A model generated the notes under the pieces. That model made no database searches and had not been told where the DNA came from. It was given only the letters and a program-made list of their open reading frames with translations. Below, piece after piece: positions 1 through 35,745 of a DNA stretch of 38,051 bases. Within the stretch, counting starts at the first letter, position 1, and each line of letters opens with the position of its first letter. Source of the DNA: Verrucomicrobiales bacterium. GTDB taxonomy: Bacteria > Verrucomicrobiota > Verrucomicrobiia > Methylacidiphilales > JAAUTS01. Made by a program: the position numbers and the translations under genes. The stretch lies in contig JAIRPN010000018.1 in assembly GCA_031256975.1 (NCBI GenBank), positions 64,807 to 102,857 of the forward strand. The letters run 5' to 3'.

Positions 1-756
1 GGCGGAAACCAGATACCAGGGGCCGCTCATGCCCAGCCAGTAGGGGGCTAGGCTGCAGGGAATCAGCAACAGGGTATACAGTACGCTCTTCCAGGCGGTG
101 AGTTTGCCGTTAGCGTCATTGAGGGTGAGCATTTTAAAACCGCCGCGCGCATAATCTTCACGATAGAGCCAGGCGATGGCGAGGAAGTGGGGCATTTGCC
201 AGAGGAACAAAATTAGGAATAATGTCAGCACTGTGGCATTGAGCTGGCGGTTGGCGGCGACGTAGCCGATGACAATCGGCAGCGCGCCGGGAATCGCGCC
301 GATCAGGGTGTTGAGCGGGGTCAACTTTTTCAGCGGGGTATACACGAACAGGTAACTGAACAGGGTCAGCAACGCGGTGCAAAAGACGTCAAAATTGGCG
401 GCGAGCAGCAGATAAACCAAGCCGAGGGCCGCCAATGACGAGCCAAAGCAGAGGGCGCTTTGTTCGCTGACGCGACCCGCGGCAATCGGCCGGTCCTGGG
501 TGCGGTGCATCCGGCGGTCGGCGGCGGCTTCCAGCACTTGGTTGAGCACCGCGGCGCCGCAGGCCACCCCGGCGGTGCCGAGCAGGGTGTGAATCAGCAG
601 CCAAGTGTTGATTTCGCCGTTGGCGCCCATGTAGAAACCGGCGAAAGTGGAAACCACCACCATGAAGCTGAGGCGAAACTTGGTCAACTCGAGCAAATCA
701 GAGAGCCAGATGCGCCACAGCGGCAGCGATTTCAGTTCCAGTGCGATTTCTTTCAT
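1..756 (-). CDS. ctaB: Protoheme IX farnesyltransferase (heme O synthase), 3' end outside window
   Basis: Adds a farnesyl group to heme b to make heme O, the precursor of heme A for the aa3 oxidase encoded nearby; an integral membrane UbiA-family enzyme. Reading leftward from the ATG at 754-756 (MKEIALELKS) the frame stays open for 252 codons to the window edge, so about 40-50 C-terminal residues are missing against a usual length near 290-300. Visible family motifs are the prenyl-diphosphate site NQVLEAAADRRMHRT, with Glu where the first Asp of NxxxDxxxD usually sits, then YTPLKKLTPLNTLIGAIPGA and WQMPHFLAIAWLYREDY. It is divergent from actA, and heme A synthase (ctaA) lies 17 kb away in the same locus. 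One copy of the dispersed motif lies in it (106-117), encoding Asp-Ala-Asn-Gly. Confidence 0.93.
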   Translation of the reverse strand, partial: MKEIALELKSLPLWRIWLSDLLELTKFRLSFMVVVSTFAGFYMGANGEINTWLLIHTLLGTAGVACGAAVLNQVLEAAADRRMHRTQDRPIAAGRVSEQSALCFGSSLAALGLVYLLLAANFDVFCTALLTLFSYLFVYTPLKKLTPLNTLIGAIPGALPIVIGYVAANRQLNATVLTLFLILFLWQMPHFLAIAWLYREDYARGGFKMLTLNDANGKLTAWKSVLYTLLLIPCSLAPYWLGMSGPWYLVSA

Positions 757-1110
757 GTTTAACGTGTAAGAACAGCTAACATTAAACTAAATTTCGCTAA
801 TGACAAGATTCGGCATTCGCATTTCGTCTTGGCAATAACGCGATACCGATAAATAATGAGTTTTCGAAGCAGTAGTGAAATTTATATGCGAAGCGCAGCT
901 AATTTTAACAAAACTACTACTAATAACAATTAATCAAGTTGTGAATGACAGCGGCGAATCGTTACGTTATTTTACCTGCTGAATTTTTTTAAGTTGATGG
1001 GAAAACCTGAAGGAAGTGGATGGCCATCACGCTAACGGTGATCTTTTGCGGAAAGCGTGTGGTTTTTTGCGCGGCCTCGGGTTGAATATTTAGTTTAGTA
1101 GGATTTTATA
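757..1110. promoter_or_regulatory. Divergent intergenic region between ctaB and actA
   Basis: These 354 bp hold no credible gene and are clearly more AT-rich than the flanks, as expected for back-to-back promoters of ctaB (left) and the respiratory operon (right). Two copies of the dispersed motif lie here: a partial one at 795 and a good one at 1029-1040, the latter forming a small hairpin (ATCAC at 1026-1030 with GTGAT at 1038-1042). A weak promoter-like pair is TTGTGA followed 18 bp later by TACGTT around 940-970, but no hexamer pair is convincing. The start of actA is preceded by a modest AGGA-type ribosome site. Confidence 0.5.
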
Positions 1111-1776
1111 ATGGCTAACATATTTCCGAAGTGGACGGTTACGCTGCCGATCAAGCTTATCGTGTGCGGCGGCGTGCTTGGCGGGTTAGTGATTCTGGGC
1201 GTGACCTATTATTTTACGCCGAAATACTCCCGCGTGGGCTACCAGCCGATCCAGCCGATCCCGTTCGACCATTCCCTGCACGTCAACCAGCTCGGCATCG
1301 ACTGCCGCTACTGCCACCAGTCGGTCGAGGTTAGCGCCAATTCCTCGGTTCCCTCGGTGCAGACCTGCATGACCTGCCATTCGCAGATCAAGAAGGACAG
1401 CCCGAAACTCGAGCCGCTGCGCGCGGCCTGGAACGGCGGCAAGGGCGACGGCCCGGCGCTGCGCTGGGTGCGCATCCATGAGGTTCCCGATTTCGCCTAT
1501 TTCAACCACGCCGCGCACGTCAACTCGGGTGTCAGCTGTGTCACCTGCCATGGCAATGTGAATCATATGGGCGCCGTGGCGCAGAACCAGCCGCAGAGCA
1601 TGGGCTGGTGCCTGGACTGCCACCGCCATCCCGACGTGAACATCCGGCCGAAGGACAAGGTCACCGACCTCGATTGGAAGCCCGCCAGCGGCGAGAGCCG
1701 TGCCTCGATCGGCGAACAATTGATCAAAGAACAGAAGATTGATCCCCCGCAGAACTGTGGAGCCTGTCATCGATGA
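1111..1776 (+). CDS. actA: Alternative complex III pentaheme cytochrome c subunit ActA
   Basis: Electron-transfer subunit of alternative complex III, the quinol:electron acceptor oxidoreductase that replaces the bc1 complex. The 221-residue protein has an N-terminal membrane anchor (about 13-35), then five CxxCH heme c sites starting near residues 65 (CRYCH), 86 (CMTCH), 143 (CVTCH), 167 (CLDCH) and 213 (CGACH), which is the diagnostic ActA pattern, plus scattered histidines suitable as distal ligands. The ATG at 1111 follows a TAGGATTTTATA leader. Its TGA overlaps the ATG of actB by 4 bases, marking the start of a tightly packed operon. Heme attachment would depend on ResB/CcsA encoded downstream. 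Confidence 0.95.
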   Translation: MANIFPKWTVTLPIKLIVCGGVLGGLVILGVTYYFTPKYSRVGYQPIQPIPFDHSLHVNQLGIDCRYCHQSVEVSANSSVPSVQTCMTCHSQIKKDSPKLEPLRAAWNGGKGDGPALRWVRIHEVPDFAYFNHAAHVNSGVSCVTCHGNVNHMGAVAQNQPQSMGWCLDCHRHPDVNIRPKDKVTDLDWKPASGESRASIGEQLIKEQKIDPPQNCGACHR

Positions 1777-4700
1777 AACGTCCGATAAATAGTTACGAAG
1801 CCGCCAACGGCAAACCGAAGGTTTACTGGCGTGGTGTCGAGGAGTATTCCAAGACCGCCGAGTTCCAGCAGTGGCTTGACCGCGAATTCCCGCAGGGCGC
1901 TTCCGAGTTCTGGGGTGATGGCGTTTCCCGCCGCAGCTTCGTCCGCCTGATGGGCGCGTCGATGGCCCTGGCCGGCCTGGGCATGGCCAGTTGCCGCCGT
2001 CCCGAGGCGCATCTGGTGCCGTTCACCAAGACTTCCGAATTGCAGACCACCGGCCTGACCTTGAATTTTGCCACCTCGATGCCGCGCCGCCGTGGCGGTG
2101 TGCCGCTGCTGGTAACCAGCTATCAGGGCCGCCCGATCAAGATCGAGGGTAATCCGCTGCATCCGCTGAGCAAGGGCAAGAGCGATACCTTCGCGCAGGC
2201 TTCGTTGCTGAATCTGTACGATCCCGACCGTTCCTGGCGTTTCCTGCACGCTAACAGCGAAATCAGCGCCGACCAGTTTTTCAAGGATCTCGACACGCTA
2301 ACGGCGGGTTGGGCCGCCAATGGTGGCAAAGGTCTGGCCTTTCTCGGCGGTGAAGTAAATTCGCCAACGCTGAACCGCTTGCGCGCGGAGTTGTTGAAGA
2401 AATTCCCGCAAGCCACTTGGACCACTTACGAACCCGGCCTTTATAATAATGAATGGCAGGCGGCGAAGAATGTGTTTGGCCAAGAGGTGAAAATTTCCCC
2501 GCGCTACGACAAGGCGGAAGTGATTCTCTCGCTCGATTGCGATTTCCTCGGCAGCGACGACGGCACCCTGGCCTCGATCCGTGATTTTACCGAAGGCCGC
2601 AAGGTCGAGAATCCCAACGGTAGGATGAATCGCCTGTATGTGGTGGAAAGTCGTTACAGCAATACGGGTGGCATGGCGGATCATCGCTTGCGTTTGCCTG
2701 CCAGTAAGATCTCGCTGTTGGCGTCGGCTTTGCTCGCCGAGCTCAAGCCAGGTTCACTGGCTCCGGAACTGCCCGGCGTCGATGCCAAATGGATTACTGA
2801 AGCGGCGCGTGATCTGGCGAAAGCCGGCAAGAACGCGCTGGTGGTGGTTGGCGCGGGCCAGCCTGCCGAAGTGCACCAGGCGGCGCTGATGTTGAACTCC
2901 GCGCTCGGCGCGATTGGCAATACGGTGGAATTGCTGCCGGTGGAAGATAAATTGCCGAAGCTGGCAATTCAGGAACTGGCCAAGTCGATTGGTTTGGGAT
3001 TGGTTACCGACCTGGTGATTCTCGGCGGCAATCCGGTTTACAATGCGCCCGCCGATCTGGATTTCGCCAGTGTTCTGGGCAAGGTTAAAAACATCATCCG
3101 CCTTGGTTCGCACGAGGACGAGACGACTGCGGTTAGCGGCTGGCATGCGCCGTTGGCGGAATACCTCGAAGCCTGGGGTGACACGATTTTGCAGGATGGT
3201 TCCTATGGTTGTGTCCAGCCGCTGATTCTGCCCTTGCACAACGGCCTTTCGGAAATCCAGTTGGTCGCCAAGATTCTCGGCCAGCCGCTAATAGCGGGAC
3301 CGGAATTGGTGCAGGAAACCTTCAAGCAGCGCGGCGGTACTGACGCGACCTGGCCGCAGTTTGTGCATGACGGTTTTGTGCCGCTAACCGCGACTGTTCC
3401 GCCGATCACCATTGGCGCAAGCCCCGCTTCGATGGGCGTCAGCCTTGCTTCGTTGAAGGCCGCTAACAGCGAACTCGGCCCGAATAATTTGGAGTTGGTG
3501 TTTGTGCCGGACAGCAAGGTGGACGACGGTCGTTTCTCCAACAACGGCTGGTTGCAGGAATTGCCGGACTTCATGACCAAGCTGACTTGGGACAATGCGG
3601 CGTTGATCAGCCCGCTAACCGCGAAGTCGCTCGGCCTGGACTGCAAGTTGCACGACGGCACTTATTATGGCGACGTGATCAAGATCACGGTTGATGGTCG
3701 TTCGGTCGAGGCGCCGGTGCTGATCGCACTGGGCCAGGCGGATTACACCATCACGTTGCCGCTCGGTTACGGCCGCAAGATTTCCGGCAAAGTCGGCAAA
3801 GATGTCGGCTTTAGCGCCTATGAAATCCGCTCGTCATTGGCGCCTTATGTGCTGACCGGCGCGCAGGTGGTCAAGACCGGCAAGACTTTCCCGTTCTCGA
3901 TCACCCAGGAGCACTGGAGCATGGAAGGTCGCGACTTGGTGCGCGAGGCGCCGTTGGCCTACTACAAGGAACATCCGGATTTCACCCGCGAAGTCGGCGA
4001 GGAAGCCGAGGCGCCGCCCCTGGAGAATTTCTACAAGTCGCCGGGCTTTGATTTCAAGAAGGACTACCAGTGGGGCATGGTCATCGACCTCAGCTCCTGC
4101 GTGGGTTGCAACGCCTGCGTCATTTCCTGCCAGGCGGAAAACAACATTCCGATCGTCGGCAAGGAACAGGTGCGCAACGGCCGCGAAATGCACTGGATGC
4201 GCGTCGACCGCTATTATTCCGGTTCGCAGACGCAGAACGAGCGCGGCATCGAGGCGATTCCGAACGATCCCGAAGTGGTGATGCAGCCCGTCACCTGCAT
4301 GCAGTGCGACAACGCGCCTTGCGAAACAGTCTGCCCGGTGAACGCCACCGTGCACAGCGAGGAAGGCTTGAACTTGATGGTTTACAATCGTTGCATTGGC
4401 ACTCGCTATTGCGCGAACAACTGTCCGTACAAGACCCGCCGCTTCAATTTCTTCGATTACAACCAGCGTCAGCTCGACAAGCTGTATCTCGGGCCGCTCG
4501 GTCCGAAGGGCACTGCGGAGACGATCAAGTTGTCGAAAAATCCGGACGTCACCGTGCGCATGCGCGGCGTGATGGAAAAATGCACCTTCTGCATCCAGCG
4601 CATCGAGAAGGCCAAGATTACCTGGAAGATCGACACCAAGCGCGAAGGCGGCAAGATGCCCGGCGATGCGATCCAGACTGCCTGCCAGCAATCGTGTCCG

Positions 4701-4925: not shown

Positions 4926-6351
4926 GGAAGTGACAACATTCGGCCCCGCGCGCGGCAATGTGATGGAGCGCAAACCGCTGATCGCGAACTCACGTTCGGC
5001 GAAATGGATCACCGCGCACACGGTTGGCCTGATTGAAGGCAAGCCGCTGCGCATCTGGTGGATTTTGCTGACCATCTCCTCAGCATTGGCGTTGTTTTTG
5101 CCGTTAGAGTTGACTTATCTGGTTTCCACCGGGGTCGGCATCTGGGGTTCCAACAACACCGTGGCCTGGGCCTGGGACATCACCAATTTCGTGTGGTGGG
5201 TCGGTATCGCCCACGCCGGCACCGCCATTAGCGCCATCTTTTTCCTGACGCGGCAGAAATGGACCAACGCGATCAACCGCATTGCCGAGGCGATGACCAT
5301 TTTCGCCATCGGTTGCGCGGGCGTGTTCCCGGCCTTCCACGTCGGCCGTGTGTGGATGGTGTGGTTCCTCAATCCCGCGCCGTATTACAACGACATCTGG
5401 CAGAACTTCAAGAGCCCGTTGTTCTGGGACGTATTCGCGGTGACTGCTTATTTGACGGTTAGTGCCCTGTTCTGGTACTACGGCATGATCCCCGACCTGG
5501 CGTCGGTACGTGACAAGGTTTCCGGCAAGGTCCGCAAGATCGCCTACGGTATCGCGGCGCTGGGCTGGCGCGGTTCCGGACGGCATTGGTTTTATTATGA
5601 AAAAGGCTACGTGCTGCTGGCGGGCATCTGCTCGGCGCTGGTGTTCTCGGTTTGCGGCATCGTGTCGATGGACTTCGCCACCTCGGTGATTCCCGGTTGG
5701 CACACCACCATTTTCCCGATGTATTTCGGCGTGGGCGCGGTGTACGGCGGTTTCGCCATGCTGTTCATCCTGATCATTCCCACCCGGCATTTCTTCAAGC
5801 TGCACGACCTGATTACCGAGAAACACATCGACAACATGTGCAAGGTGACCATCATCATGTCGCTGTGCATCGGTTACATCTACCTGATGGAATATTTCAC
5901 CGCCTATTACAGCGGCAATCCGTATGAATGGTGGCTGGTGTTCTTCAACCGCAGCACGCCGAGCGGCGCGCCGTACTGGTGGTGTTTCTGGATCATGGTG
6001 TCGTTCAACGCCATTGTGCCGCAAATTTTGTGGTTCAAGGCCGTGCGGCGCAATACGCTGTTTTTGTTCTTCCTGATGTTCATCCCGAGCATCGGCATGT
6101 GGTACGAGCGTTTCGTCATTATCGTTACCGGCATTCAACGCGATTATCTGCCGTCGTCGTGGCATTATTTTGTGCCGACCATCAATGACGTGCTGCTCTA
6201 TATCGGCACCATCGGGTTCTTCTTCACGGCGTTCCTGTTGTTCCTGCGCTTCCTGCCGATTTTCAACATGGTGGAAGTGAAGAACACCTTGCCGGAGGCA
6301 AATCCCCATCATGACGCCAACCACGAAGCCAAGGGAGGTTCCCATGAGTAA
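4918..6351 (+). CDS. actC: Alternative complex III membrane subunit ActC (NrfD/PsrC family)
   Basis: Integral membrane quinol-oxidising subunit of alternative complex III, 477 residues. About ten hydrophobic segments are visible, with NrfD/PsrC-type features such as the early PLELTYLVSTGVGIWG and GIAHAGTAISAIFFLTRQKW stretches, then HVGRVWMVWFLNP and the central WHTTIFPMYFGVGAVYGG. The ATG overlaps the end of actB (ATGAATGA). The C-terminus is soluble and His-rich (ANPHHDANHEAKGG) and overlaps actD by 8 bases. The role is known from the family; the assignment rests on order and motifs. Confidence 0.93.
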   Translation: MNEEVTTFGPARGNVMERKPLIANSRSAKWITAHTVGLIEGKPLRIWWILLTISSALALFLPLELTYLVSTGVGIWGSNNTVAWAWDITNFVWWVGIAHAGTAISAIFFLTRQKWTNAINRIAEAMTIFAIGCAGVFPAFHVGRVWMVWFLNPAPYYNDIWQNFKSPLFWDVFAVTAYLTVSALFWYYGMIPDLASVRDKVSGKVRKIAYGIAALGWRGSGRHWFYYEKGYVLLAGICSALVFSVCGIVSMDFATSVIPGWHTTIFPMYFGVGAVYGGFAMLFILIIPTRHFFKLHDLITEKHIDNMCKVTIIMSLCIGYIYLMEYFTAYYSGNPYEWWLVFFNRSTPSGAPYWWCFWIMVSFNAIVPQILWFKAVRRNTLFLFFLMFIPSIGMWYERFVIIVTGIQRDYLPSSWHYFVPTINDVLLYIGTIGFFFTAFLLFLRFLPIFNMVEVKNTLPEANPHHDANHEAKGGSHE

Positions 6352-6874
6352 GCTTTACGGTATCGGCGCCCAGTTCGACAGCGCGGCTTCGCTGTTAGCG
6401 GCGGCGGAAAAGGTTCGCGAGGCGGGTTACCGCCGCTGGGACACGCATTCGCCGTTCCCGGTGCACGGCATCGAGCAGTCGCTGGGCATGCAACGGAGTT
6501 TTGTGTCGGCCATCGGCCTGTTGGGCGGCATTGGCGGCTTCATTGGCATCCTGGCCCTGATCTTGTACACCAGCAAAATCAATTATCCGCTGGTGGTGCA
6601 GGGCAAGCCGTATTTCTCGCTGGCGGCGACCTTCCCGATCATGTTCGAGGTGACCATCATCGCCTCGGCGTTCATCACCGTTGGCGGGGTGTTCCTGTTC
6701 TGCCTGCTGCCGCGCCTGTATCATCCGGTGTTCAACTGGGACAAGTTCGCGCGCGCGACCGACGACGCCTTTTTCGTGGTGATTGATGCGGGCGACCCGT
6801 TGTTTGACGAGGCGCTAACGGCGAAGTTTTTATCGGAACTCGGCGGCAAAAACGTGGAGTTGATTGAGGAATAA
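6344..6874 (+). CDS. actD: Alternative complex III subunit ActD (DUF3341)
   Basis: Small membrane subunit of alternative complex III, 176 residues. I chose the ATG at 6344 (MSKLYGIGAQFDS) because AAGGGAGG lies just upstream and because DUF3341 proteins begin in this way; an upstream ATG at 6311 would add 11 residues with no support. The N-terminal domain (1-60) has the family pattern of a small alpha/beta fold with YRRWDTHSPFPVHGI, followed by two transmembrane helices (about 65-85 and 100-125) and a soluble tail. It overlaps the end of actC and is followed by actE after 5 bases. Confidence 0.92.
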   Translation: MSKLYGIGAQFDSAASLLAAAEKVREAGYRRWDTHSPFPVHGIEQSLGMQRSFVSAIGLLGGIGGFIGILALILYTSKINYPLVVQGKPYFSLAATFPIMFEVTIIASAFITVGGVFLFCLLPRLYHPVFNWDKFARATDDAFFVVIDAGDPLFDEALTAKFLSELGGKNVELIEE

Positions 6875-6879
6875 CGACT

Positions 6880-7488
6880 ATGTTCAGGTATTTTTTCTGG
6901 GGAGTCTTGGTGTTGGCAGTCTCGGTCGTGATGATCGCGGGCTTCCGCGGCCAGAAGTTTGAAAAGCCGCCGATCCAGATCATTCCCGATATGAAGCAGC
7001 AGGGCAAATACAAGGCCCAGGCGGAATCGAACTTTTTCGCTGACGGCCGTGCCGACCGCCAGTTGGTGCCCGGCACCATCCCGGCCCAGGTTGACGTGAA
7101 AAATCCTTACAGGGAAACCGGCATCATCGACGGATTTTACGGCGATGGCATCCCGCTAACGGTGAGCGAGTCGCTATTGGCGCGAGGCCAGGAGCGTTAC
7201 AACATCAATTGCGCGGCGTGCCATGGCGCGCTGGGTGACGGCAAGGGCATCACCTCGAAATACGGCATGGCCGGTGCCGCCAACTACCACAGCGACCGCA
7301 TTCGCCAGATGCCGGACGGCGAGATTTTCCACACCATCACCGACGGCAAGGGCAACATGATCGGCCTGCCGAACATTCCGGCCGACGACCGCTGGGCGAT
7401 CATCGCGTACATCCGCGTGCTGCAACGCAGCCAGCACGCCACCCTGAATGATGTGCCGGAACAGCAAAGGAGTGAATTAAGCAAATGA
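6880..7488 (+). CDS. actE: Alternative complex III mono-heme cytochrome c subunit ActE
   Basis: Membrane-anchored mono-heme cytochrome c of alternative complex III, 202 residues. There is an N-terminal hydrophobic anchor (residues about 3-22), one CAACH heme site near residue 110 and a later methionine-rich segment (GKGNMIGLPNI) that would supply the axial Met; the C-terminal helix (DDRWAIIAYIRVLQ) is typical of class I cytochromes. It likely passes electrons onward to the oxidases. The TGA overlaps the actF ATG by 4 bases (AAATGAGC). Confidence 0.92.
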   Translation: MFRYFFWGVLVLAVSVVMIAGFRGQKFEKPPIQIIPDMKQQGKYKAQAESNFFADGRADRQLVPGTIPAQVDVKNPYRETGIIDGFYGDGIPLTVSESLLARGQERYNINCAACHGALGDGKGITSKYGMAGAANYHSDRIRQMPDGEIFHTITDGKGNMIGLPNIPADDRWAIIAYIRVLQRSQHATLNDVPEQQRSELSK

Positions 7489-8741
7489 GCGACGCTAACC
7501 ATCATCAGGTATTGCAGGCGCCGAAGGCCGAGAATTTCCGCTTTCACCGCCTGCAATTGACCCCGCTGGCCTTGTTGATCACCGGCATGGTGTTTCTCGC
7601 CATTAGCGTCCTGTGGGGCTTTTTCAATCCGACACGCTTCGCCTATTCGTGGATGTTCTCCTTCCTGTTTTATTTCTTTATCAGCGCCGGGGCCCTGTTC
7701 TGGCTGTTCATCCACCACATGACCGACGCCGACTGGTCGGTGGGCGTGCGCCGCCTGCTGGAAAACATGGCGGCCCTGTTCTTCCCGTGGCTGTTGCTGG
7801 CGGCGATTCCGTTGTTCCTGCTGCGCAGCGAATTGTTCAAGTGGTGGGATATCGCGCCCGGCGTGGATCATGTGCTGGATGCGAAATCCGGTTACCTGAA
7901 CCACGAATTTTTCATCATCCGCGCGGTGGTGTTTTTCCTGTTCTTCGGGTTGTTTTCGTGGAAGCTGCGTTCCCTGTCGCTGCAACAGGACGCTAATGGT
8001 GATGTCAATTTGTCGGTCAGAATGCGCCAGTGGTCCTACGCGGGCGCGGTGCTGTTCGCGATCTTCATCACCTTGGTGGCGCAGGATTGGCTGATCGGTG
8101 TCAGCTACCGCTGGTATTCGACCATCCTTGGCGTGTATGTCTGGGCGGCTTCGCTGTTGATGGCGATGTCGGCACTGGTGATGGCGGTGAACGGCCTGCG
8201 TTCGGTTGGCCTGCTGAGGGAAGTGACCAGCGTCGAGCACTACCACATCATGGGCAAGCTGATGCTGGCCTTCACCATGTTCTGGTCCTACGTCGCCTTC
8301 GTGCAATATATGCTTTACTATTACGGCAACATTCCCGAGGAGACGATTTTCTATCAAGTGCGCAACGCCAACAGCTGGCGGATCATGAGCTGGGCGCTGT
8401 TTATCGGCGGCTTCATCCTGCCGTTCTGCTGTCTGCTGTCGCGCCAGAACAAGCGCGTGCCGTGGCGCCTGACCCTGATCGCCCTGTGGACCTTGATCAT
8501 CCACGCCGTGGAAATGTACTGGTTCATCATGCCGGCGATGCAGTTGCGCCATGTTCCGGGCACGGGTTATCCCGAGGATTACCAGCAATACCTGCATATT
8601 TCCCCCCATCCGCTGGATTTTACCTGCATGATCGGCCTGGGCTCGTTTTTTGCCTATGTTTTCCTGCGTAATTTGCGCAAGCAATCGTTGTTCCCGATTC
8701 GCGACCCGCGCTTGTTTGAATCGGTGAACACCAAGAACTGA
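7485..8741 (+). CDS. actF: Alternative complex III membrane subunit ActF
   Basis: Second large integral membrane subunit of alternative complex III, structurally related to ActC, 418 residues with roughly ten hydrophobic segments. Recognisable stretches include GVDHVLDAKSGYLNHEFFIIRAVVF (inside the family's conserved region), AQDWLIGVSYRWYSTILG and a late YHIMGKLMLAFTMFWSYVAF. The start is fixed by the 4-base overlap with actE. The second codon block (GACGCTAAC) is a copy of the dispersed motif, and another copy fills the whole 8-base gap between this stop codon and the next start. Confidence 0.93.
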   Translation: MSDANHHQVLQAPKAENFRFHRLQLTPLALLITGMVFLAISVLWGFFNPTRFAYSWMFSFLFYFFISAGALFWLFIHHMTDADWSVGVRRLLENMAALFFPWLLLAAIPLFLLRSELFKWWDIAPGVDHVLDAKSGYLNHEFFIIRAVVFFLFFGLFSWKLRSLSLQQDANGDVNLSVRMRQWSYAGAVLFAIFITLVAQDWLIGVSYRWYSTILGVYVWAASLLMAMSALVMAVNGLRSVGLLREVTSVEHYHIMGKLMLAFTMFWSYVAFVQYMLYYYGNIPEETIFYQVRNANSWRIMSWALFIGGFILPFCCLLSRQNKRVPWRLTLIALWTLIIHAVEMYWFIMPAMQLRHVPGTGYPEDYQQYLHISPHPLDFTCMIGLGSFFAYVFLRNLRKQSLFPIRDPRLFESVNTKN

Positions 8742-11527: not shown

Positions 11528-12316
11528 ATGGCGAACAACACATACGACAATGATTTTCCGATCCCGTCGCCCGATGACGACAAGCCGGATCCGAATTTAC
11601 GCAATCTGGATTATTCCGAGGACGTTAACGTCGGAAAAATCCACGAATCAATCCTGCGTGAGAACAAGGAACCGCGCGAAGGGATGGAGCCGGTGCCCCT
11701 GTGGCTGTTGGCGGTCATCATTAGCTTTATTTTCGGCTGCGGCATTTATCTCGGCCTGTTCTGGGGCGGATTCAGCGCGACCGCTTATGACGAGGACACC
11801 CGCATCGCCTCCAGCGGCGGTGAAAAGGGCAAGGGCGGCGGCGCTAATGGCGAGACGGCCGTGGCGGCGGGCGATCCCTTGCAGGAAGCGATCAAGCTCG
11901 GCAAGCGCCAGTATTCCAACAACTGCGCCTCCTGTCACCAGCCGACCGGCATGGGTGTCAGCGGCCAGTATCCGCCGTTGGCCAAGTCCGATATCGTGAT
12001 CGGTCCTGAACGTCATTTGCTGGCGGTGTTATTGAACGGTTTGGAAGGCCATTTGACCGCGCAGGGCGTTGCCTACAACGGGGCGATGCCCGCTTGGGGC
12101 GGCAACATGAACGACAAGCAGGTTGCCGCGGTGTCGACCTTCATTCGCCAGGAATGGGGCAATAGCGCCGGACCGATCACGCCCGAACAGGTGGCGGCGG
12201 CCCGCAAGGAATTCGCCTCGCATCCGGCGGCCTACAAGATTGAAGAAGTGGAAGCCTTGCCGACCACGCCGATTCCGGGGGGAACGGCTGCGCCGGGCGG
12301 AGAAGCGAAAAAATAG
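11528..12316 (+). CDS. ccoP: CcoP-like cytochrome c subunit with only one heme site
   Basis: Third subunit of the cbb3 oxidase by position, 262 residues. The N-terminal 60 residues are acidic and soluble (FPIPSPDDDKPDPN), followed by a transmembrane helix (about 58-80), a Gly-rich linker and one cytochrome c domain with CASCHQPTGMGVSG and the axial-Met segment GAMPAWGG. Canonical CcoP carries two CxxCH sites; only one is present here, and the protein ends with an Ala/Pro/Gly-rich tail. It could also be regarded as a generic cytochrome c, but the directly adjoining ccoO (1-base gap) favours a reduced CcoP. It ends the cbb3 block; 93 bases follow before coxA. Confidence 0.82.
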   Translation: MANNTYDNDFPIPSPDDDKPDPNLRNLDYSEDVNVGKIHESILRENKEPREGMEPVPLWLLAVIISFIFGCGIYLGLFWGGFSATAYDEDTRIASSGGEKGKGGGANGETAVAAGDPLQEAIKLGKRQYSNNCASCHQPTGMGVSGQYPPLAKSDIVIGPERHLLAVLLNGLEGHLTAQGVAYNGAMPAWGGNMNDKQVAAVSTFIRQEWGNSAGPITPEQVAAARKEFASHPAAYKIEEVEALPTTPIPGGTAAPGGEAKK

Positions 12317-15400: not shown

Positions 15401-15586
15401 ATGTCGATCAAAGTGGCACATGTGATATTCGTGGTCAGCACGACGCTAATGGCGGCGGGCGGCGCGTACTGGGCGGACCAGGGCGGCCTGCAGCATTTGT
15501 GCTGGGCGCTGACCGCGCTGGCGGTGGCACTGCCGGTTTACGGCGTGGTGTTTTACCGCAAATTGAAGAAGCACCCGACCCTGTGA
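15401..15586 (+). CDS. Small two-helix membrane protein in the oxidase operon
   Basis: 61 residues from ATG 15401 (MSIKVAHVIF). Two hydrophobic helices (about 5-22 and 30-50) and a basic C-terminus (YRKLKKHPTL). I recognise no named family. The start was chosen because GAGGTAACGAGT precedes it and because the upstream frame lies inside coxD. It lies 10 bases after coxD and ends one base before the next gene, so it is probably a minor subunit or assembly factor of the aa3 oxidase. It contains a full copy of the dispersed motif (15442-15455). Confidence 0.65.
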   Translation: MSIKVAHVIFVVSTTLMAAGGAYWADQGGLQHLCWALTALAVALPVYGVVFYRKLKKHPTL

Positions 15587-15587
15587 T

Positions 15588-15848
15588 ATGAACCATCTGC
15601 GCAACATGCTTACGACCGGCACGCTAATGGCGATCCTGCTGTTGGCGTCGCAGCCCGTGCATGCCTGCGCGGTTTGTTTCGGCGCGCCGGGGGACCAGAA
15701 CACCGAGGCCGCCGGGCATGCGATCCTGTTCATGCTCGGGGTGCTGGTACTGGTGCTGGGTTCGATTTTCACCACGGTGGTGGTGCTGGCCTGGCGGGCC
15801 CACAAGAGGAGTTCCGCCACGCATAACGACGAGGAAATTTTAGGATAG
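15588..15848 (+). CDS. Small membrane protein with N-terminal signal and CAVCFG motif
   Basis: 86 residues. An N-terminal signal-like segment (residues about 8-26) ends at HACAVCFGAPGD, a Cys-x-x-Cys pair that would lie outside the membrane; a second helix spans about 45-68, followed by a charged tail. Short proteins with this CAVCFG motif occur next to cox genes as I recall, but no function is known to me; a redox or copper-handling role is only a guess from the two cysteines. It lies between coxD and coxB with 1- and 7-base gaps. Confidence 0.65.
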   Translation: MNHLRNMLTTGTLMAILLLASQPVHACAVCFGAPGDQNTEAAGHAILFMLGVLVLVLGSIFTTVVVLAWRAHKRSSATHNDEEILG

Positions 15849-26544: not shown

Positions 26545-26584
26545 AAAAAAAGACGCTAATGGCAATCTCGCCGTTAGCGTCTTT
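26545..26584. terminator. Bidirectional intrinsic terminator made from two opposed dispersed motifs
   Basis: GACGCTAATGGC (26552-26563), a 6-base loop, then GCCGTTAGCGTC (26570-26581): a 12-bp stem with a single U-G wobble, extended by AAA/TTT. Seven A residues (26545-26551) on the left become a U-tract for transcripts from the right, so it is strong for the leftward outer-membrane gene and weaker for the rightward carbonic anhydrase gene. Each arm is one copy of the genome-wide motif. Confidence 0.85.
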
Positions 26585-26606
26585 CAGTTAAAGTTAAATT
26601 TCCCAA

Positions 26607-28622: not shown

Positions 28623-29921
28623 ATGCTTCCTAAATTGACCACCGAAATCCCGGGAAGAAAGTCCCGCGACCTGGCGCGGCGGCTGAAAGCGCATGAATCG
28701 CGCAATGTCACGTATCTGTCGGACGATTTCCCCGTGTTCTGGGAGCGCGCCGAGGGGGCGAACGTGTGGGACGTGGACGGCAATTGTTTTCTCGACCTGA
28801 CCTCGGCCTTTGGCGTGGCCACCGCTGGCTTCGCCTGCGATTACAAACGCCAGACCTTCGCCTGGCAGGGGGCCTTGCTGGAACACGGCATGGGCGACGT
28901 TCATCCGTCGGCGCTGAAGGTGGAATTGTGCGAACGCCTGAGCCAAGTGACCTTCGAACGCTGGGGCGTTGGAGCGGGGAAGGCGATTCTCGGCAATTCC
29001 GGCTTCGAAGCGGTGGAGGCGGCGTTGAAAACTTCGTGGTTAGCGACGGGCAAACGGCGGGTGCTGGCTTTCGAGGGTGCTTATCACGGCTTGGGATTCG
29101 GTTCGCTAACGGCGAACGGCTGGGAGTTTTTCAAAGCGCCGTTCCGTCCGATGCTGGCGGACTTCGCCGATTTTGTGTCTTATCCGCGCACGGCGGGGGA
29201 TTTGGCAAAACTGGAACCGCTAATCACGAAAATTTTGTCGCGCGGTGAAACCGGGGTGATTTTGGTGGAGCCGGTGCTGGGTCGCGGCGGCGAGGTGGTT
29301 CCGCCGGACGGATTTTTGCAATTGTTGCGGCGACTGGCGGATCAACATGACTCGCTGCTGGCGTTCGATGAAATTTACACCGGATTTTTTCGCACCGGAA
29401 AATGGTTCGCCTGCGACCACGAAAAAGTGGTGCCGGACTTGATCTGCTTGGGCAAGGCCTTGAGCGGCGCTTATCCGGTTTCAGCCTGTGTCGGCAAGGC
29501 CGGGGTCATGGACGCTTGGCCGGAATCGGCGGGCGAGGCTTTGCACACCAGCACTTTCCTCGGCAATCCGGTCGGTTGCGCGCTGGCCCTGGCGTCGATT
29601 GAATTTTGGTCACAGGCTAACCGCGAGCGGGAATTGGCCAAGCTGGAGGAATTGTGGCAGCAAGCCCTGTCGCCCTTGGCGTCGCTGCCGGAAGTGGTGC
29701 AGGTGCGGGGTCGCGGCCTGTTGTGGGGCGTGGAGTTCAAGATGCCGGGCATTGCCGGCACGCTAATGACGAAAGGCTTGCAGCGCGGCTTGGTGTTGCT
29801 TGGCGCGGGACAGGACGGTCAGGTTTTGTCATTGGCGCCGACTGTGGCACTGACGCCGGAGGAAATCGCCTTCGCGGGCGCGGAGATCGAAAAACTGATC
29901 CGCGCGGTCAGGAGTACGTGA
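28623..29921 (+). CDS. Class III (PLP-dependent) aminotransferase
   Basis: 432 residues of the ornithine/GABA aminotransferase fold. Cofactor residues: GNSGFEAVEAALK (phosphate-binding), FDEIYTGF (Asp249 to the pyridine nitrogen), and ICLGKALSGAYPVSA (Lys278 Schiff base). The N-terminus has an atypical SDDFPVFWERAEGANVWDVDGN. The substrate cannot be told from the sequence; glutamate-1-semialdehyde aminotransferase and biotin-type enzymes look less likely, and a diaminobutyrate/omega-amino acid role is only a guess. The 3' end overlaps the convergent Dabb gene by 14 bases. It holds five dispersed-motif copies. Confidence 0.85.
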   Translation: MLPKLTTEIPGRKSRDLARRLKAHESRNVTYLSDDFPVFWERAEGANVWDVDGNCFLDLTSAFGVATAGFACDYKRQTFAWQGALLEHGMGDVHPSALKVELCERLSQVTFERWGVGAGKAILGNSGFEAVEAALKTSWLATGKRRVLAFEGAYHGLGFGSLTANGWEFFKAPFRPMLADFADFVSYPRTAGDLAKLEPLITKILSRGETGVILVEPVLGRGGEVVPPDGFLQLLRRLADQHDSLLAFDEIYTGFFRTGKWFACDHEKVVPDLICLGKALSGAYPVSACVGKAGVMDAWPESAGEALHTSTFLGNPVGCALALASIEFWSQANRERELAKLEELWQQALSPLASLPEVVQVRGRGLLWGVEFKMPGIAGTLMTKGLQRGLVLLGAGQDGQVLSLAPTVALTPEEIAFAGAEIEKLIRAVRST

Positions 29922-30920: not shown

Positions 30921-30952
30921 TAAGGGCAGGGTTTATCCTGCCCTTATTTTTT
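30921..30952 (+). terminator. Intrinsic terminator after bactofilin gene
   Basis: TAAGGGCAGG (30921-30930), loop GTTTAT, CCTGCCCTTA (30937-30946), then six T: a perfect 10-bp stem and T-tract. It lies between convergent bactofilin genes; a second small stem (CGGGA/TCCCG near 30979-30992) lies closer to the leftward gene but lacks a T-tract. Confidence 0.92.
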
Positions 30953-30994
30953 GGGAAAAATTTTGTCGTCGCCCAAGCGGGACAAATCCCGTGG

Positions 30995-31735
30995 CTACGC
31001 CGGTTGGGGAGCGGGTTCGACCGCTGGCGGAGGCTCTTCCAGCTTGGTCTCGCAGCGCGCCAGCAATTTGCCGCCCCGGTTCACGATCACCTCGGCGGCG
31101 TCCAGCTTGTTGGCGGTCAAGTGTCCCTCGCCGTGAACCTGCAGGCGTTCGCTAACGGTGAACTGTTTCGCCTCCACCTTGCCGTGAATCTCGGCGCTCC
31201 TGAAGCTTAGCGGCCCCTCGGTGTACAGCTGGGCCGATTCGCTGACATGCAAATGCTCACCCTCGGCCCCGGCGTACAATTTCACATTGCCGCTGACGGT
31301 GATGCCCTGGCGGCTTTGCAGCTTGCAGTTGCTGCGACCGGAAATCTTGATGTTCTCCGCCTCGGCCTTGATTCCGTTGAACAGGCATTTCGGGCCGATT
31401 TCCAGGTCGCCGTAGGTGCGGATCGCGGTGGAGACTTCCTTGTTGATCTTGTGGTTGCGCAGGTCGAGATAGGTCGAGCAAAACGTGCATTGCCAGGACT
31501 GCGCGTCGTAGTGCACGTACAGCTCGTTGTTGCAGTGCATGCAGACGATCTTGCGACGCTCGACGGTGGTTTTCTTGCGCGCCTTGCGCGGGGCTTCCGT
31601 CACCTTCAGCGGGATGCGCTCGCCACAACGCTGGCAATAGGTCACGTTGGCGTTCGGATAATCGTGCTGCTGGTGCTGGCAGGCCGGGCAGGTGATCAAA
31701 ATCTTCTGGGGACCTTTGTTGGAGGGAAGTCGCAT
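30995..31735 (-). CDS. Bactofilin-type protein with N-terminal zinc ribbons
   Basis: 246 residues from ATG 31735 (MRLPSNKGPQK); a further upstream ATG overlaps the next gene. Two zinc-ribbon-like pairs are seen: CPACQHQQ with YCQRC (about 15-37) and CMHC with WQCTFC (about 65-86). The remaining residues (about 95-230) are a right-handed beta-helix of bactofilin type (GDLEIGPKCLFNGIKAEAENIKISGRSNCKL as the rhythm), ending in a Pro-rich tail. The zinc ribbons may recruit a nucleic acid or protein partner to the filament, which is inference. It lies 4 bases downstream of the bactofilin at 31740-32153 and shares an operon. Confidence 0.82.
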   Translation of the reverse strand: MRLPSNKGPQKILITCPACQHQQHDYPNANVTYCQRCGERIPLKVTEAPRKARKKTTVERRKIVCMHCNNELYVHYDAQSWQCTFCSTYLDLRNHKINKEVSTAIRTYGDLEIGPKCLFNGIKAEAENIKISGRSNCKLQSRQGITVSGNVKLYAGAEGEHLHVSESAQLYTEGPLSFRSAEIHGKVEAKQFTVSERLQVHGEGHLTANKLDAAEVIVNRGGKLLARCETKLEEPPPAVEPAPQPA

Positions 31736-31739
31736 GGTC

Positions 31740-32153: not shown

Positions 32154-32203
32154 ACCTGGGTTTCTATAAACCTAAAAACATAGCTGCTATTTTGCCAATC
32201 AAA

Positions 32204-33247
32204 ATGCTAAACTTCGCCGTGCGCGACGAAATATTGCAGTTATTCCGGCCTGACCTCAGTGAGGAGGAGTTCGCCGTTGGCGCCCTGCGCCAGCTCCGGC
32301 GACAGGCTGCCGACAATCCGGTCTACGGCCGTTTCCTGTCCGGGCTGGGACTTGATCCCCTCAAATTGGCTAACTGGCAGGACTTTCCGGCGCTGCCCGT
32401 TAGCGCCTTTCGCGAACAGGCGGTCTGCTGTTTCCCGTCGGAACAGGCCAAGGCGGTGTTCGAGACCAGCGGCACCACCGAGAACAAGACCGGACGGCAC
32501 TATTTCAAGGATCTGCGTTACTACGAAAAGTCGTTGTTAGCGGGTTTCAAACTGTTCATGCCCGATCTGCTCAACCACCGCTGGATTTCGCTGGTGCCGA
32601 CCTTTGAACAAAAACCGATTTCCTCGCTCGGCTACATGATCGACTATCTGGGCCGGTCGATCCCGTGGGGCGGTTGCCAGTCGTTCTGCAACGCTAACTA
32701 CGAAATCGACTTCGACCGCCTTGCCAAGGCGCTCGACGACGCTAACGACGAAGGCATTCCGGTGGCCTTGTTTGGCACCTCCTTCGCCCTCGCCACCATC
32801 GGCGAAGTCTTTCAGGAACGCCATCAAAACTGGCGGTTAGCGGACAACAGCGTGATCTTCGACACCGGCGGTTACAAAGGCCGTCGCCGCGAACTCACCA
32901 CCAACGAATTGATCGCCCTGCTGGTCAGCGTGTTCGGCTTTAGCGTCGACAATATCATCAACGAGTACGGCATGACCGAACTCTCCACCCCCGGCTACGC
33001 CAAGCTGGGCGAGGGCATCCACCGCTTCCCGCCCTGGCTGAAAGTCCTCATCCGCGACCCGCTAACCGGGAACATCTGCCGGCCGGGCGAACGCGGTCTC
33101 GTGCAACTCTACGACCTCGCCAACGTCGGCAGCGTCATGGCCATCGGCACCCTCGACTCCGCCGTCTACGAACAGGACGGCATCCGCCTTCTCGGCCGTG
33201 TCGCCGTCGCCGACTTGCGTGGCTGTTCGCTGCCTTACGAAGTGTGA
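32204..33247 (+). CDS. LuxE-like acyl-protein synthetase (ANL superfamily)
   Basis: 347 residues from ATG 32204; a TTG at 32192 would add only four residues. ATP-dependent activation of a fatty acid to acyl-AMP and transfer to a protein cysteine is the known role of LuxE. Motifs: the P-loop-like ETSGTTENKTGRHYF (about 90-104), then NEYGMTELSTPGYAKLG (A5-type YGMTE, about 250) and the late FPPWLKVLIRDP. It is followed after 76 bp by a LuxC-like reductase, its usual partner. Luciferase genes (luxAB) are absent, so fatty aldehyde or alcohol production for another product is more likely than light. Six dispersed-motif copies lie inside. Confidence 0.85.
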   Translation: MLNFAVRDEILQLFRPDLSEEEFAVGALRQLRRQAADNPVYGRFLSGLGLDPLKLANWQDFPALPVSAFREQAVCCFPSEQAKAVFETSGTTENKTGRHYFKDLRYYEKSLLAGFKLFMPDLLNHRWISLVPTFEQKPISSLGYMIDYLGRSIPWGGCQSFCNANYEIDFDRLAKALDDANDEGIPVALFGTSFALATIGEVFQERHQNWRLADNSVIFDTGGYKGRRRELTTNELIALLVSVFGFSVDNIINEYGMTELSTPGYAKLGEGIHRFPPWLKVLIRDPLTGNICRPGERGLVQLYDLANVGSVMAIGTLDSAVYEQDGIRLLGRVAVADLRGCSLPYEV

Positions 33248-33315
33248 AAAGTGAAAATTGAAGAGTGAAATAAGCGACGATTTTTAATTTCACAATTCAC
33301 CCTTCACTCTTCACT
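33241..33315. repeat. Inverted repeat of GTGAA-rich units between the LuxE- and LuxC-like genes
   Basis: The left arm (33241-33270) is built of AGTGAAA/AGAGTGAA units; the right arm (33289-33315) is the complement (TTCACAATTCACCCTTCACTCTTCACT reads back as AGTGAAGAGTGAA). GTGAA-rich arms like these are a scattered repeat type in some Verrucomicrobiota and other genomes. The AT-rich centre TTTTTAATTT could also make it a weak terminator or an attenuator between the two genes. Confidence 0.55.
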
Positions 33316-33323
33316 ATTCTCCT

Positions 33324-34373
33324 ATGAACACCGCCGCCCGCATCAACGCCGTTGCCGCCGCCTTTGGCGGTCGTGCCGACCTCGGCTTTGCCAACGAGGC
33401 GGACCTGCAAAACCTGATCGTCACCGAGCTCGGCCACGCCGACATCCTCGACCAGCCGGTCCTGCGCGGCAACGTCACGCTAATGGCGAGACCGCCGCAC
33501 AGCATCTACCACCTCTGCGCCTCCAACCTCGCCGTTAGCGCCGAGACCAGCCTGCTGCTCGGCCTGTTGCTCGGCAGCCAGTTGTATTTCAAGCTGCCCT
33601 CCGGCGGACTCGAAGCCTTCGTCAAAACCGTCGAGGGACTGCCTGCAGCCTTGCGCGAGAAAGTCACCCTGCTGTCGCAGCACGATTCCGCCCTGATGGC
33701 CGCTGCCGCCGCCGTGGTGGTCTACGGTTCCGACGAAACCATCGCCACCATCCACCGCCAGATCCACTGGCGGCAACGTTTCCTCGGCTACGGTCACAAA
33801 ATCAGCCTCGGCCTGATTGAACAGGGAGACGAAACCCCGGAGATTGCCGCCGCCGCCGCACGCGAAGTGCTGGCCTACGAACAACTCGGCTGCCTCTCCC
33901 CGCAAGCCTACCTGTGCCGCAATCCGGAGAGCTGTGAAAAATTCGCCGCGCTGTTAGCGACTGCCTTGGCCGAACAACGTCAAACCCAACCGCTACCCAA
34001 ACTGGATTTCGACCAGGCCGCCCTGCGCCAGCACTTCCACCAAAGCGCCGCCGCCCGTGGCGAAAAAGTCCTCGCCGGTGCCGATGGCGAATACCTGGTC
34101 ATTAGCGGCGCCCGGCAATTGGAAACCGGCCCCGCCCATGCCGCCGTTAGCGTCCTGTCCTCTTGGGAAATTCCGGACGCCGTGTCCTGGAACAACAAAC
34201 TTTCCGCCGTCTCCCACAGCTCGCCGTTGGCGCCCGAAGTTATCGCCACCTTCACCAACCTCGGCGTCTCCCGCTTCTGCCCCACCGGCAACCTGCAAAA
34301 CCCGCCTTTGGCTTGGCATCACGACACCCGCCCGCGTCTGGCGGATTTGGTCAGGTGGGTGACATTTGGTTAA
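33324..34373 (+). CDS. LuxC-like fatty acyl reductase
   Basis: 349 residues from ATG 33324. Reduces an acyl-enzyme thioester to the aldehyde with NADPH. LuxC-type blocks: RPPHSIYHLCASNLAVSAET, LYFKLPSGG, AVVVYGSDETI, GYGHKISLGLI and YEQLGCLSPQAYL, the last including the expected catalytic Cys. It forms a pair with the LuxE-like gene. Five dispersed-motif copies lie within it, and the high density stops abruptly at its end, where AT-richer DNA begins. Confidence 0.85.
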   Translation: MNTAARINAVAAAFGGRADLGFANEADLQNLIVTELGHADILDQPVLRGNVTLMARPPHSIYHLCASNLAVSAETSLLLGLLLGSQLYFKLPSGGLEAFVKTVEGLPAALREKVTLLSQHDSALMAAAAAVVVYGSDETIATIHRQIHWRQRFLGYGHKISLGLIEQGDETPEIAAAAAREVLAYEQLGCLSPQAYLCRNPESCEKFAALLATALAEQRQTQPLPKLDFDQAALRQHFHQSAAARGEKVLAGADGEYLVISGARQLETGPAHAAVSVLSSWEIPDAVSWNNKLSAVSHSSPLAPEVIATFTNLGVSRFCPTGNLQNPPLAWHHDTRPRLADLVRWVTFG

Positions 34374-34526
34374 GAGTTAGGGGGTATGCTTCTTGATTTT
34401 TTTGGTGTGAAAAGCATGTTATCTATAACAATGCCTCCAGCCTGATCAACCAACAGGTCGATGTCCGTTTATGGTAGACTATTGCTGACTTCTACCAACA
34501 AGGAAATTAAGAAAAGGTGTTAACTT

Positions 34527-34727
34527 GATCACTACGACAAGCCGGCCGAACGATACCCTTCAATCCCAACGGCTCCTCCGACGGCATCGTCAGCATTATC
34601 CCCCCCGAAGTATCTTCCACGCTATCCAACTGAGCTGGCACCCTTCAGATTGTCAGGAATGTAGTCTTGGTTGAGGATTTTCAGAAATGCGAGAGGGCGG
34701 TTGGAATGGCATCTATTATTTCACTGA
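34527..34727 (+). pseudogene. purL: Decayed 3' end of purL (FGAM synthase)
   Basis: Reading all three frames in turn gives, in order, YDKPAERYP, then FNPNGSSDGIVSIIPPE, then IFHAIQLSWHPSD, then SWLRIFRNARGRLEW. The C-terminus of PurL in E. coli runs NPNGSPNGI, MMPHPERVF, SWHP and WMRIFRNAR in the same order and with similar spacing, so this is a relic with about three frameshifts (near 34558, 34608 and 34655) and an early stop. Only the last 70 or so residues of a protein of more than 1200 remain. It sits at the edge of the restriction-modification block and suggests a deletion or insertion scar. The remaining parts of 34374-34827 show no gene I can recognise. Confidence 0.8.
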
Positions 34728-34827
34728 GTAAAAGGTAAATTGCAGCTTGTCTTTTGATTATTAGTCATGAATCATTCTTCTATAAAGGGAATCAAACATA
34801 TCTCTCAATAACTACTGAGGTTTTTAA

Positions 34828-35745
34828 ATGGCTGTTACGGTTGCAGAATATTTGGGGAAAAGAACCGATAATGACAATGATATAGTCCCGGTGCCAAATC
34901 TGGAACAAAAACCAGATATTGCTTGTCCCTTCAGATGCGGCAATTGCTTAAAAGCAAAAAAGCGGCAACAACCTATATGTTCGGTACGTGATTCCAATGG
35001 CAAACTCTGGATTGTCTGCGAACATCGCCTCTGCGCCACAACGCCCAAGGCAGCCGCAATCAATGAGCATCAGAAAAAGATTCTACGCATAGTTGCACAA
35101 GCAATATATGGGACAGTTTCAGATACCGATATCCTTTTTAAAAGAGAGGTGCCAATTCCCATTACGGATACAAGTGACTATAAGGCGGACTACGTCATGT
35201 GGCGGACAAATCCTGCTGCTTCCGATCGGCCTGCAATTGTTGAAATGCAAGGCGGTGGAGAAACAGCCGGAACAGAAAAATTAACCGACCATGTAAAAAA
35301 ATGGTCCCAAAAAATGCCTCCAACTAATGCCTATCTTAGGCAAGAAGCGAAAGCAACTCCTTTGATTACCAATGCATGGAGGAGACAACAGGAGCAATTT
35401 CTTGTTAAAGGCAGTGTAGCCACGCTAACGGGTGCAAAAATGGTATTTTGCGTCGGCTCGTCGTTATACGAATATCTTATTCAACGTTTAACTACGGTAA
35501 GGCTGCAGGATTTAAGCCAAGCAAACTGGAGCTTGGCATTGCTTCCCTTTGTCGAGGACACAGACGGAACTCCGCCCCCTTGCGCTCCTGACAGTATTCA
35601 ATTTGAGATTGATTTAAGCAGAGCGCGATACACGAATTATTTTTCTTTTATTCAAGCTTTGACAAACCAAGGCTCTCCGCAGCCCCAAGTTTTCACCGGA
35701 GAATACAACAAGCTTGATGGCGAAAAAGTTCAAATATCATCTTGA
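34828..35745 (+). CDS. NotI-like restriction endonuclease
   Basis: 305 residues, AT-richer than the genes to the left. Residues about 32-52 hold a four-cysteine cluster (CPFRCGNCLKAKKRQQPIC), a metal-site pattern I associate with the NotI family, in which iron is bound. A PD-(D/E)xK-type core is suggested by DYKADYVMW and, 15 residues on, AIVEMQGGGET, containing the acidic and Gln/Lys-type residues. The identification is from memory and the recognition site is unknown (NotI itself cuts GCGGCCGC). The gene converges on a C5-methyltransferase gene with a 9-base overlap, as expected of a type II system. It contains the island's single dispersed motif (35420-35433). Confidence 0.75.
   Translation: MAVTVAEYLGKRTDNDNDIVPVPNLEQKPDIACPFRCGNCLKAKKRQQPICSVRDSNGKLWIVCEHRLCATTPKAAAINEHQKKILRIVAQAIYGTVSDTDILFKREVPIPITDTSDYKADYVMWRTNPAASDRPAIVEMQGGGETAGTEKLTDHVKKWSQKMPPTNAYLRQEAKATPLITNAWRRQQEQFLVKGSVATLTGAKMVFCVGSSLYEYLIQRLTTVRLQDLSQANWSLALLPFVEDTDGTPPPCAPDSIQFEIDLSRARYTNYFSFIQALTNQGSPQPQVFTGEYNKLDGEKVQISS

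Follow-up and report, generated by a model that had tools for sequence, protein, structure and literature searches.

The question raised by this locus is why one short word recurs all along it. The window, a stretch of 38,051 nucleotides (contig C18, 64807-102857) of a Verrucomicrobiales genome referred to here as G000 (2.76 Mb in 19 contigs, 86.9% complete), contains the seven-letter core CGCTAAY 66 times (37 plus, 29 minus), whereas ~6.5 copies are expected under a first-order model (3.2 for CGCTAAC and 3.3 for CGCTAAT). The longer form CGCTAAYGG was found 23 times compared to 0.59 +/- 0.78 in 100 dinucleotide shuffles, none of which reached 23. The original prediction, which read the motif as a candidate DNA uptake sequence, had counted about 66 and about 23 copies by hand against roughly 8 and fewer than one expected; both counts proved exact. 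The data presented here suggest that the full word, GNCGCTAAYGRYGA, is probably a DNA uptake sequence, that is, a self-recognition word of these bacteria. This interpretation draws on a genome-wide excess, a control for codon usage and a comparison of relatives, and the function is assigned by analogy.

The motif is real beyond doubt. CGCTAAYGGCGA was found 461 times in G000 (232 forward and 229 reverse) while the reversed pattern was found 0 and 3 times. Gene-level statistics were drawn from 1.63 Mb of G000, comprising the window and further stretches with 1297 simple gene calls. Within those genes CGCTAAYGGCGA occurred 249 times compared to 9.9 after within-gene synonymous-codon shuffling, so a 25-fold excess survives the control for codon bias. 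Under the same shuffles the control word GGCTAAY was found 115 times compared to 184 (0.6x), and CGCTGAC, the core spelling of sister species described below, stood at 1.1x its shuffled value. The consensus is strong as well. CGCTAAC was found 1525 times compared to 102 expected (14.9x the second-order expectation) and CGCTAAT reached 8.9x, whereas all one-letter variants at positions 1-6 of the core fell between 0.5x and 2.1x, so that perfect copies greatly outnumber one-mismatch copies. A word of 9-12 letters with a large genome-wide excess beyond codon usage is what an uptake sequence is expected to be, and both the genome-wide count and the codon control proposed in the original prediction thus favor an uptake-type sequence.

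The use of both strands and of intergenic sites was borne out in the window and in the 1.63 Mb of G000. The 2517 cores in the latter were spread over genes and intergenic regions at similar densities (1.48/kb and 1.53/kb), with 1056 in the same sense as the gene and 992 opposite; the corresponding densities of CGCTAAYGGCGA were 0.18/kb and 0.13/kb. Simple gene calls placed 58 of the 66 window cores in genes and 8 outside them, though 4 of those 8 lie near the window ends, where no gene was called. The claim that all reading frames are used holds generally, with the exception of two placements that would create an in-frame stop. The rare leucine codons were seen too: the motif holds 631 of the 1549 CTA codons and 267 of the 2100 TTA codons in the 1297 gene calls. 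The proposed flanks stood in part: G(-2), G(+8), G/A(+9), C(+10), G(+11) and A(+12) were enriched, but A at -1 was weak (44% in the window and 32% across 834 kb of G000).

The core also lacks polarity along replication. A 500-kb stretch of contig C8 with positive GC skew in all of its 10-kb windows held 463 forward and 450 reverse cores, and a 360-kb stretch of contig C9 with negative skew throughout held 325 and 294. Only the flank letters track the skew (on the C8 stretch, CGCTAAYGG 172 and 107, CGCTAACC 70 and 122). On both contigs the G-rich strand carries more CGCTAAYGG and the opposite strand more CGCTAACC, the core itself being balanced.

Four genomes of the same genus were available (G001-G004, 77-92% complete), along with two from other genera of the family (G005 and G006). 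CGCTAAYGGCGA was found 0-4 times in each of 97 relatives and 0-3 times in G001-G004. De novo word counts in those four sister genomes surfaced another word, CGCTGACNGTGA, with 1539 copies in G001, 1107 in G002, 1758 in G003 and 1224 in G004, compared to 32 in G000. The reversed control was found 0 or 1 times per genome of the genus. Of the 384 genomes of the class examined, the 379 outside the genus held at most 45 copies of CGCTGACNGTGA each, with two in G006 and one in G005; among the best 80 of 584 COX1-matching loci, no locus held more than one full word in either spelling. The top-ranked of these loci, at 71%, belongs to a Spartobacteria MAG, and the highest segment identity was 74% (L060); with the Verru_Chthon cassette described below, these matches point to the phylum Verrucomicrobiota. 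Within this set of genomes the word is therefore restricted to one genus. When the profiles were aligned letter by letter, G-M-CGCTAA-Y-G-R-Y-G-A of G000 and G-M-CGCTGA-C-G-G-T-G-A of the sisters fell in the same register, making them two dialects of one word. In 447 kb of G003 (344 gene calls), CGCTGACNGTGA stood at 9.3x its synonymous-shuffle value while the G000 core was at background (58 compared to 66). CGCTGAC was found there 1440 times compared to 209 expected, 6.9x the second-order expectation, and its one-letter variants at 0.4-2.1x.

The two dialects often occupy the same sites. Between G000 and G003 there were 92 reciprocal-best gene pairs with a mean protein identity of 72%, containing 185 alignable CGCTAAY sites. 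At the same position and orientation G003 carried CGCTGAC at 56 of these and CGCTAAY at 4, compared to a mean of 0.45 at control offsets within 60 bases and 0.75 at in-frame offsets. The rest of the heptamer was kept at 79 of the 185 sites, where 49.6 were expected from phase-matched non-motif heptamers, and at 74 of those 79, spread over 39 genes, the fifth letter was A in G000 but G in G003, while it was A in both at 4 and C at 1. With non-motif sites as the reference and codon phase stratified, 74 of 78 were switched compared to 38.6 expected (p 3e-19). The amino acid was changed at 13 of the 74 switches and unchanged at 61. A pooled version of the test (74:4 compared to 220:932, odds ratio 78) was discarded in favor of the stratified one: most motif sites are in codon phases with common A/G differences, so pooling overstated the effect.

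A second alignment method for G003 gave 69 switched and 5 unswitched sites. In comparisons with the other sisters, which were pooled without codon-phase stratification, 18 of 30 sites were switched and 1 unswitched in G001, 9 of 26 and 0 in G002, and 20 of 38 and 0 in G004. Sites were also retained within the sister dialect (of the G003 sites, 22 of 30 in G001, 10 of 17 in G004 and 1 of 2 in G002). Of the G000 sites that could be aligned outside the genus, 0 of 11 in G005 and 1 of 15 in G006 carried either word. Remnants of the opposite dialect were at background both ways (14 compared to 12.1, and 5 compared to 4.5), and a ComEC tree that included G006 placed G000, (G003,G001) and (G004,G002) in an unresolved three-way fork. 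It had been proposed that a loss of conservation between close relatives would speak against an uptake sequence. For the exact letters conservation is indeed lost in G001-G004, but this is because the dialect was switched at the sites themselves, a change that counts among the hallmarks of uptake sequences; lineage-specific spellings with sites kept at orthologous positions favor an uptake-type sequence. The in-place switch makes it well supported that the word is read by a sequence-specific agent whose taste changed within the genus.

Two further properties concern how the sites are arranged. Intergenic neighboring pairs no more than 60 bases apart in G000 (n=61) were convergent in 35 cases, divergent in 12 and tandem in 14, whereas genic pairs showed no convergent preference (64, 52 and 67). 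Among convergent intergenic pairs with both neighbors known, 31 of 34 lie downstream of at least one gene end, and among 25 pairs listed several continue into a run of T. The pair at 26554/26573 of the window has a predicted fold of -24.4 kcal/mol (z -8.28), and none of 200 shuffles was as stable; such closely spaced inverted pairs are predicted to form terminator-like hairpins. Motif-poor regions also exist: by raw counts, 23 of 162 10-kb windows held three or fewer sites compared to 0.02 expected, and the 11 windows below 48% GC averaged 3.6 sites compared to 17-18 at 54-58% GC. Eight of the 23 are at 39-48% GC, some with mobile-type genes. Three motif-poor regions (C8 320-340 kb, C8 360-400 kb and C2 20-50 kb) were sampled by scanning ten of their larger proteins. 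The matches were to RHS, ABC-2, glycosyltransferase, glycoside hydrolase and nitrogenase component 1-type families and, slightly below the Pfam cut-off, to a TraG-like one, with no match for four of the ten. Some motif-poor stretches may be foreign.

Competence genes, which the original prediction had named as a check, gave a mixed answer. G000 encodes a ComEC-type protein of 760 amino acids with Competence and DUF4131 domains, as well as DprA. Two PilB/GspE-type ATPases adjoin a PilC/GspF protein, and two further T2SSE ATPases on contig C12 were taken for PilT-type. The sole secretin gene of G000 sits in an apparent cluster that we take, from gene order, to be of the Tad type. Some 13 kb ahead of the window, at C18:49338-51503, is a minor-pilin cassette of the Verru_Chthon type with a minor pilin at C18:50865-51503; a 212-amino-acid member of the cassette has a sub-threshold GspH match. 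This cassette is only a candidate for the receptor. A GspH/FimT receptor was also sought through PF12019 and dropped, as no G000 match was over threshold.

Several observations weigh against an uptake sequence. ComEC and DprA were each detected in 26 of the 30 genomes searched (in 21 and 22, respectively, of the 25 outside the genus), and because most motif-free relatives carry these genes, they do not discriminate. Against the NCBIfam equivalog models, the G000 ComEC scores 98.8 where the cut-off is 190, and the one PilB scanned scores 635 where it is 676. A PilQ-type secretin like the high-scoring one of G001, G003 and G004 was not found in the 87%-complete G000 assembly, and PF12019 was over threshold in only one of eight genomes (G002). 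With regard to the switch, many changes are at synonymous third positions, A/G differences amount to 37% and 54% in phase-matched controls, the excess of sites with the rest of the heptamer kept is modest, and two of the four motif codon phases showed no excess of kept sites (1 of 28 and 6 of 36, below control rates). In G003, CGCTGAC is denser in genes than between them (3.5/kb compared to 1.8/kb). GC content is ordinary (0.52-0.58) in 10 of the 23 motif-poor windows. Even spacing, a further hallmark, was not seen, as the coefficient of variation outside the deserts was 1.2-1.4 (random 1.0).

These points have to be set beside what other explanations would require. If codon or mutational bias alone were at work, the preserved amino acid at 61 of the 74 switched sites would be natural, but synonymous shuffling, the similar core density within and between genes and the phase-stratified test rule out this bias as a sole cause, and we consider it hardly credible. 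A word made or kept by DNA methylation together with mismatch repair or biased repair, with no role in uptake, deserves more attention, since HIP1 is very frequent in cyanobacterial genomes and, as described in PMC4390886, is tied to methyltransferases. An unrelated HIP1-like palindrome is even present in two other Verrucomicrobiota genomes. We nevertheless regard this explanation as unlikely: the word here is ~12 letters long and not palindromic, no PF01555 methyltransferase, the only family searched, was found in the 87%-complete G000 (the sisters have 1-4 matches each), and the intergenic pairs are predicted to form terminator-like hairpins. To our knowledge no HIP1-type word pairs in this way.

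Chi sites are typically short, non-palindromic, over-represented and lineage-specific, and the present word shares all of these traits, which could point to a Chi-like recombination or repair signal or another directional DNA-processing signal such as KOPS. Signals of that kind are oriented along replication, whereas the core is unbiased on both contigs considered above, and hairpin pairs between genes are not expected of them; such a role is very unlikely. The dense, strand-symmetric sites in and between genes and the lineage-specific spelling would also fit the binding site of an abundant nucleoid or chromosome-organizing protein whose specificity changed between sister species. Sets of binding sites usually tolerate one-letter variants, but here these are near background, and the clustered deserts would be left unexplained unless they are recent arrivals, so this alternative has only a slight chance of being correct.

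If the word is an uptake sequence, it would be bound by a minor-pilin-type DNA receptor on the cell surface that belongs to the competence machinery, and DNA would enter via a type IV pilus and ComEC and then recombine. Cells would favor DNA from their own kind for uptake and recombination, and copies of the word may spread and persist since word-bearing alleles would be re-imported more often (molecular drive). A shift in receptor specificity could then have let this drive rewrite the word in place throughout the genome, giving the sister dialect GNCGCTGACGGTGA. It seems fairly likely that this is a third independently evolved uptake-sequence system and the first outside the Proteobacteria, with two dialects in one genus, dozens of sites rewritten in place and a joint evolution of receptor and genome through molecular drive. 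Such a third case, in another phylum, would mean that self-recognition in bacterial sex evolves repeatedly, and would imply a high transformability of these bacteria now or in the recent past. The dialect pair, at ~71-80% protein identity, would make the origin of uptake barriers between species readable site by site. The word would also serve as a label for recently imported DNA and could be added to constructs when transforming an isolate. The sites in the window are collected in the table.

Table. Motif sites and the inverted pair in the window (window coordinates; for the cores, leftmost base and strand).
Feature	Position	Strand	Remark
Span with all 66 CGCTAAY cores	106..35433	both (37 plus, 29 minus)	
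CGCTAAY cores, part 1	109-, 795+, 1030+, 1330-, 2249+, 2296+, 3132-, 3286+, 3382+, 3461+, 3613+		
CGCTAAY cores, part 2	4846+, 5227-, 6394-, 6813+, 7154+, 7493+, 7602-, 7991+, 8742+, 11842+, 12415+		
CGCTAAY cores, part 3	13502-, 13535-, 15444+, 15622+, 16534-, 18677-, 19127-, 19770-, 20213+, 20302+, 20781-		
CGCTAAY cores, part 4	21058+, 21330-, 21447-, 22035+, 22188+, 22305+, 22409-, 23402+, 23646-, 23682+, 24663-		
CGCTAAY cores, part 5	26554+, 26573-, 27511-, 27756-, 28105+, 29039-, 29104+, 29218+, 29761+, 31150+, 32399-		
CGCTAAY cores, part 6	32536-, 32692+, 32740+, 32836-, 33060+, 33478+, 33534-, 33953-, 34101-, 34146-, 35423+		
CGCTAACGG	107..115	-	CGCTAAYGG match
CGCTAACGG	1030..1038	+	CGCTAAYGG match
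CGCTAACGG	2296..2304	+	CGCTAAYGG match
CGCTAATGG	5225..5233	-	CGCTAAYGG match
CGCTAACGG	6813..6821	+	CGCTAAYGG match
CGCTAACGG	7154..7162	+	CGCTAAYGG match
CGCTAATGG	7600..7608	-	CGCTAAYGG match
CGCTAATGG	7991..7999	+	CGCTAAYGG match
CGCTAATGG	11842..11850	+	CGCTAAYGG match
CGCTAATGG	15444..15452	+	CGCTAAYGG match
CGCTAATGG	15622..15630	+	CGCTAAYGG match
CGCTAACGG	20213..20221	+	CGCTAAYGG match
CGCTAATGG	21058..21066	+	CGCTAAYGG match
CGCTAATGG	21445..21453	-	CGCTAAYGG match
Inverted motif pair, predicted terminator-type hairpin	26545..26592	+	sits between two converging genes
CGCTAATGG, inverted pair left arm	26554..26562	+	CGCTAAYGG match
CGCTAACGG, inverted pair right arm	26571..26579	-	CGCTAAYGG match
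CGCTAACGG	29104..29112	+	CGCTAAYGG match
CGCTAACGG	31150..31158	+	CGCTAAYGG match
CGCTAACGG	32397..32405	-	CGCTAAYGG match
CGCTAATGG	33478..33486	+	CGCTAAYGG match
CGCTAACGG	33532..33540	-	CGCTAAYGG match
CGCTAACGG	34144..34152	-	CGCTAAYGG match
CGCTAACGG	35423..35431	+	CGCTAAYGG match

Most of the 20 window proteins scanned are part of a region for alternative complex III and for cytochrome oxidase/cytochrome c assembly. The iron-sulphur protein of alternative complex III (window 1773-4925), in a region that is motif-dense in G000, is matched strongly in G005 and G006, whereas no match was found in any of G001-G004 (assemblies 77-92% complete), so the dialect switch was shown on other G000 genes instead. 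Neighboring genes at window 32192-34373 carry LuxE and LuxC domains (acyl-protein synthetase and acyl-CoA reductase). Elsewhere in G000, the motif-poor stretch C2:1-50000 (L001-L003) contains 7 core sites in 50 kb and an open frame of ~6150 codons (L001:672-19139). It also encodes a TraG-like protein at L002:3390-6065 and, at L003:1958-3682, one of the nitrogenase component 1 type.

Other repeated words were also encountered. The 12-letter palindrome GCTTGGCCAAGC was found in NYYJ01000060.1 (L066, Verrucomicrobiales ARS81) and JABGZB010000104.1 (L082, Verrucomicrobia SI036_bin22), with 1539 sites in one of the two genomes and 846 in the second (3 in each for the reversed control); across 115 genomes sampled from the phylum no genome had more than 5 (range 0-5), and the palindrome resembles a HIP1-type element. 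Further short words with 12-16 repeats, such as GAACTACCCC and ATTCCCCTTC in G002 (L025-L028) and AGGGAGCGAG in G001 (L021-L024), are possibly CRISPR or other repeats.

Among known systems, Chi likewise is short, non-palindromic and over-represented, but it is polar along replication and the G000 core is not. HIP1 resembles the present word as a short word with a high genome-wide frequency (PMC4390886), although it is palindromic and linked to methylation. According to PMC12616744, only two families are known to discriminate DNA in this manner, and no report of uptake sequences in Verrucomicrobiota or beyond those two families was found among the open-licence papers listed; competence genes have been linked to recombination in soil bacteria (PMC7305173). 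Taken as a bundle, the features of the motif match the uptake sequences of the Neisseriaceae and Pasteurellaceae (PMC3630211, PMC2397512, PMC1626085). The uptake signal sequences (USS) of the Pasteurellaceae (Hin and Apl types) share with the present word a strong nine-letter core consensus, perfect copies far in excess of one-mismatch copies, and two subclade-specific spellings (PMC1626085). They differ in the word itself, in that both spellings here fall within one genus, and in that uptake has been shown for USS only; no AT-rich conserved flank like that of USS was seen within 18 letters of the core start.

A further parallel is the DNA uptake sequence (DUS) of the Neisseriaceae, which differs in sequence and phylum and for which uptake preference, the ComP receptor and transformation are proven rather than, as here, proposed. 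In PMC2397512, DUS is described as absent from recently acquired genes and its 10-letter form as lying ~1,150 bases apart. The claim that the present motif is denser than known uptake sequences holds against that figure for the seven-letter core (one per 577 bases in the window and one per 649 in 1.63 Mb of G000) but not for the longer words, which are sparser: one CGCTAAYGG per 2.1 kb, one looser 12-letter form per 1.9 kb and one CGCTAAYGGCGA per 6 kb. DUS, for which eight dialects have been described (PMC3630211), is also a many-copy word of 10-12 letters, present in and between genes, arranged in inverted pairs at terminators and spelled in dialects bound to lineages (PMC3630211, PMC2397512).

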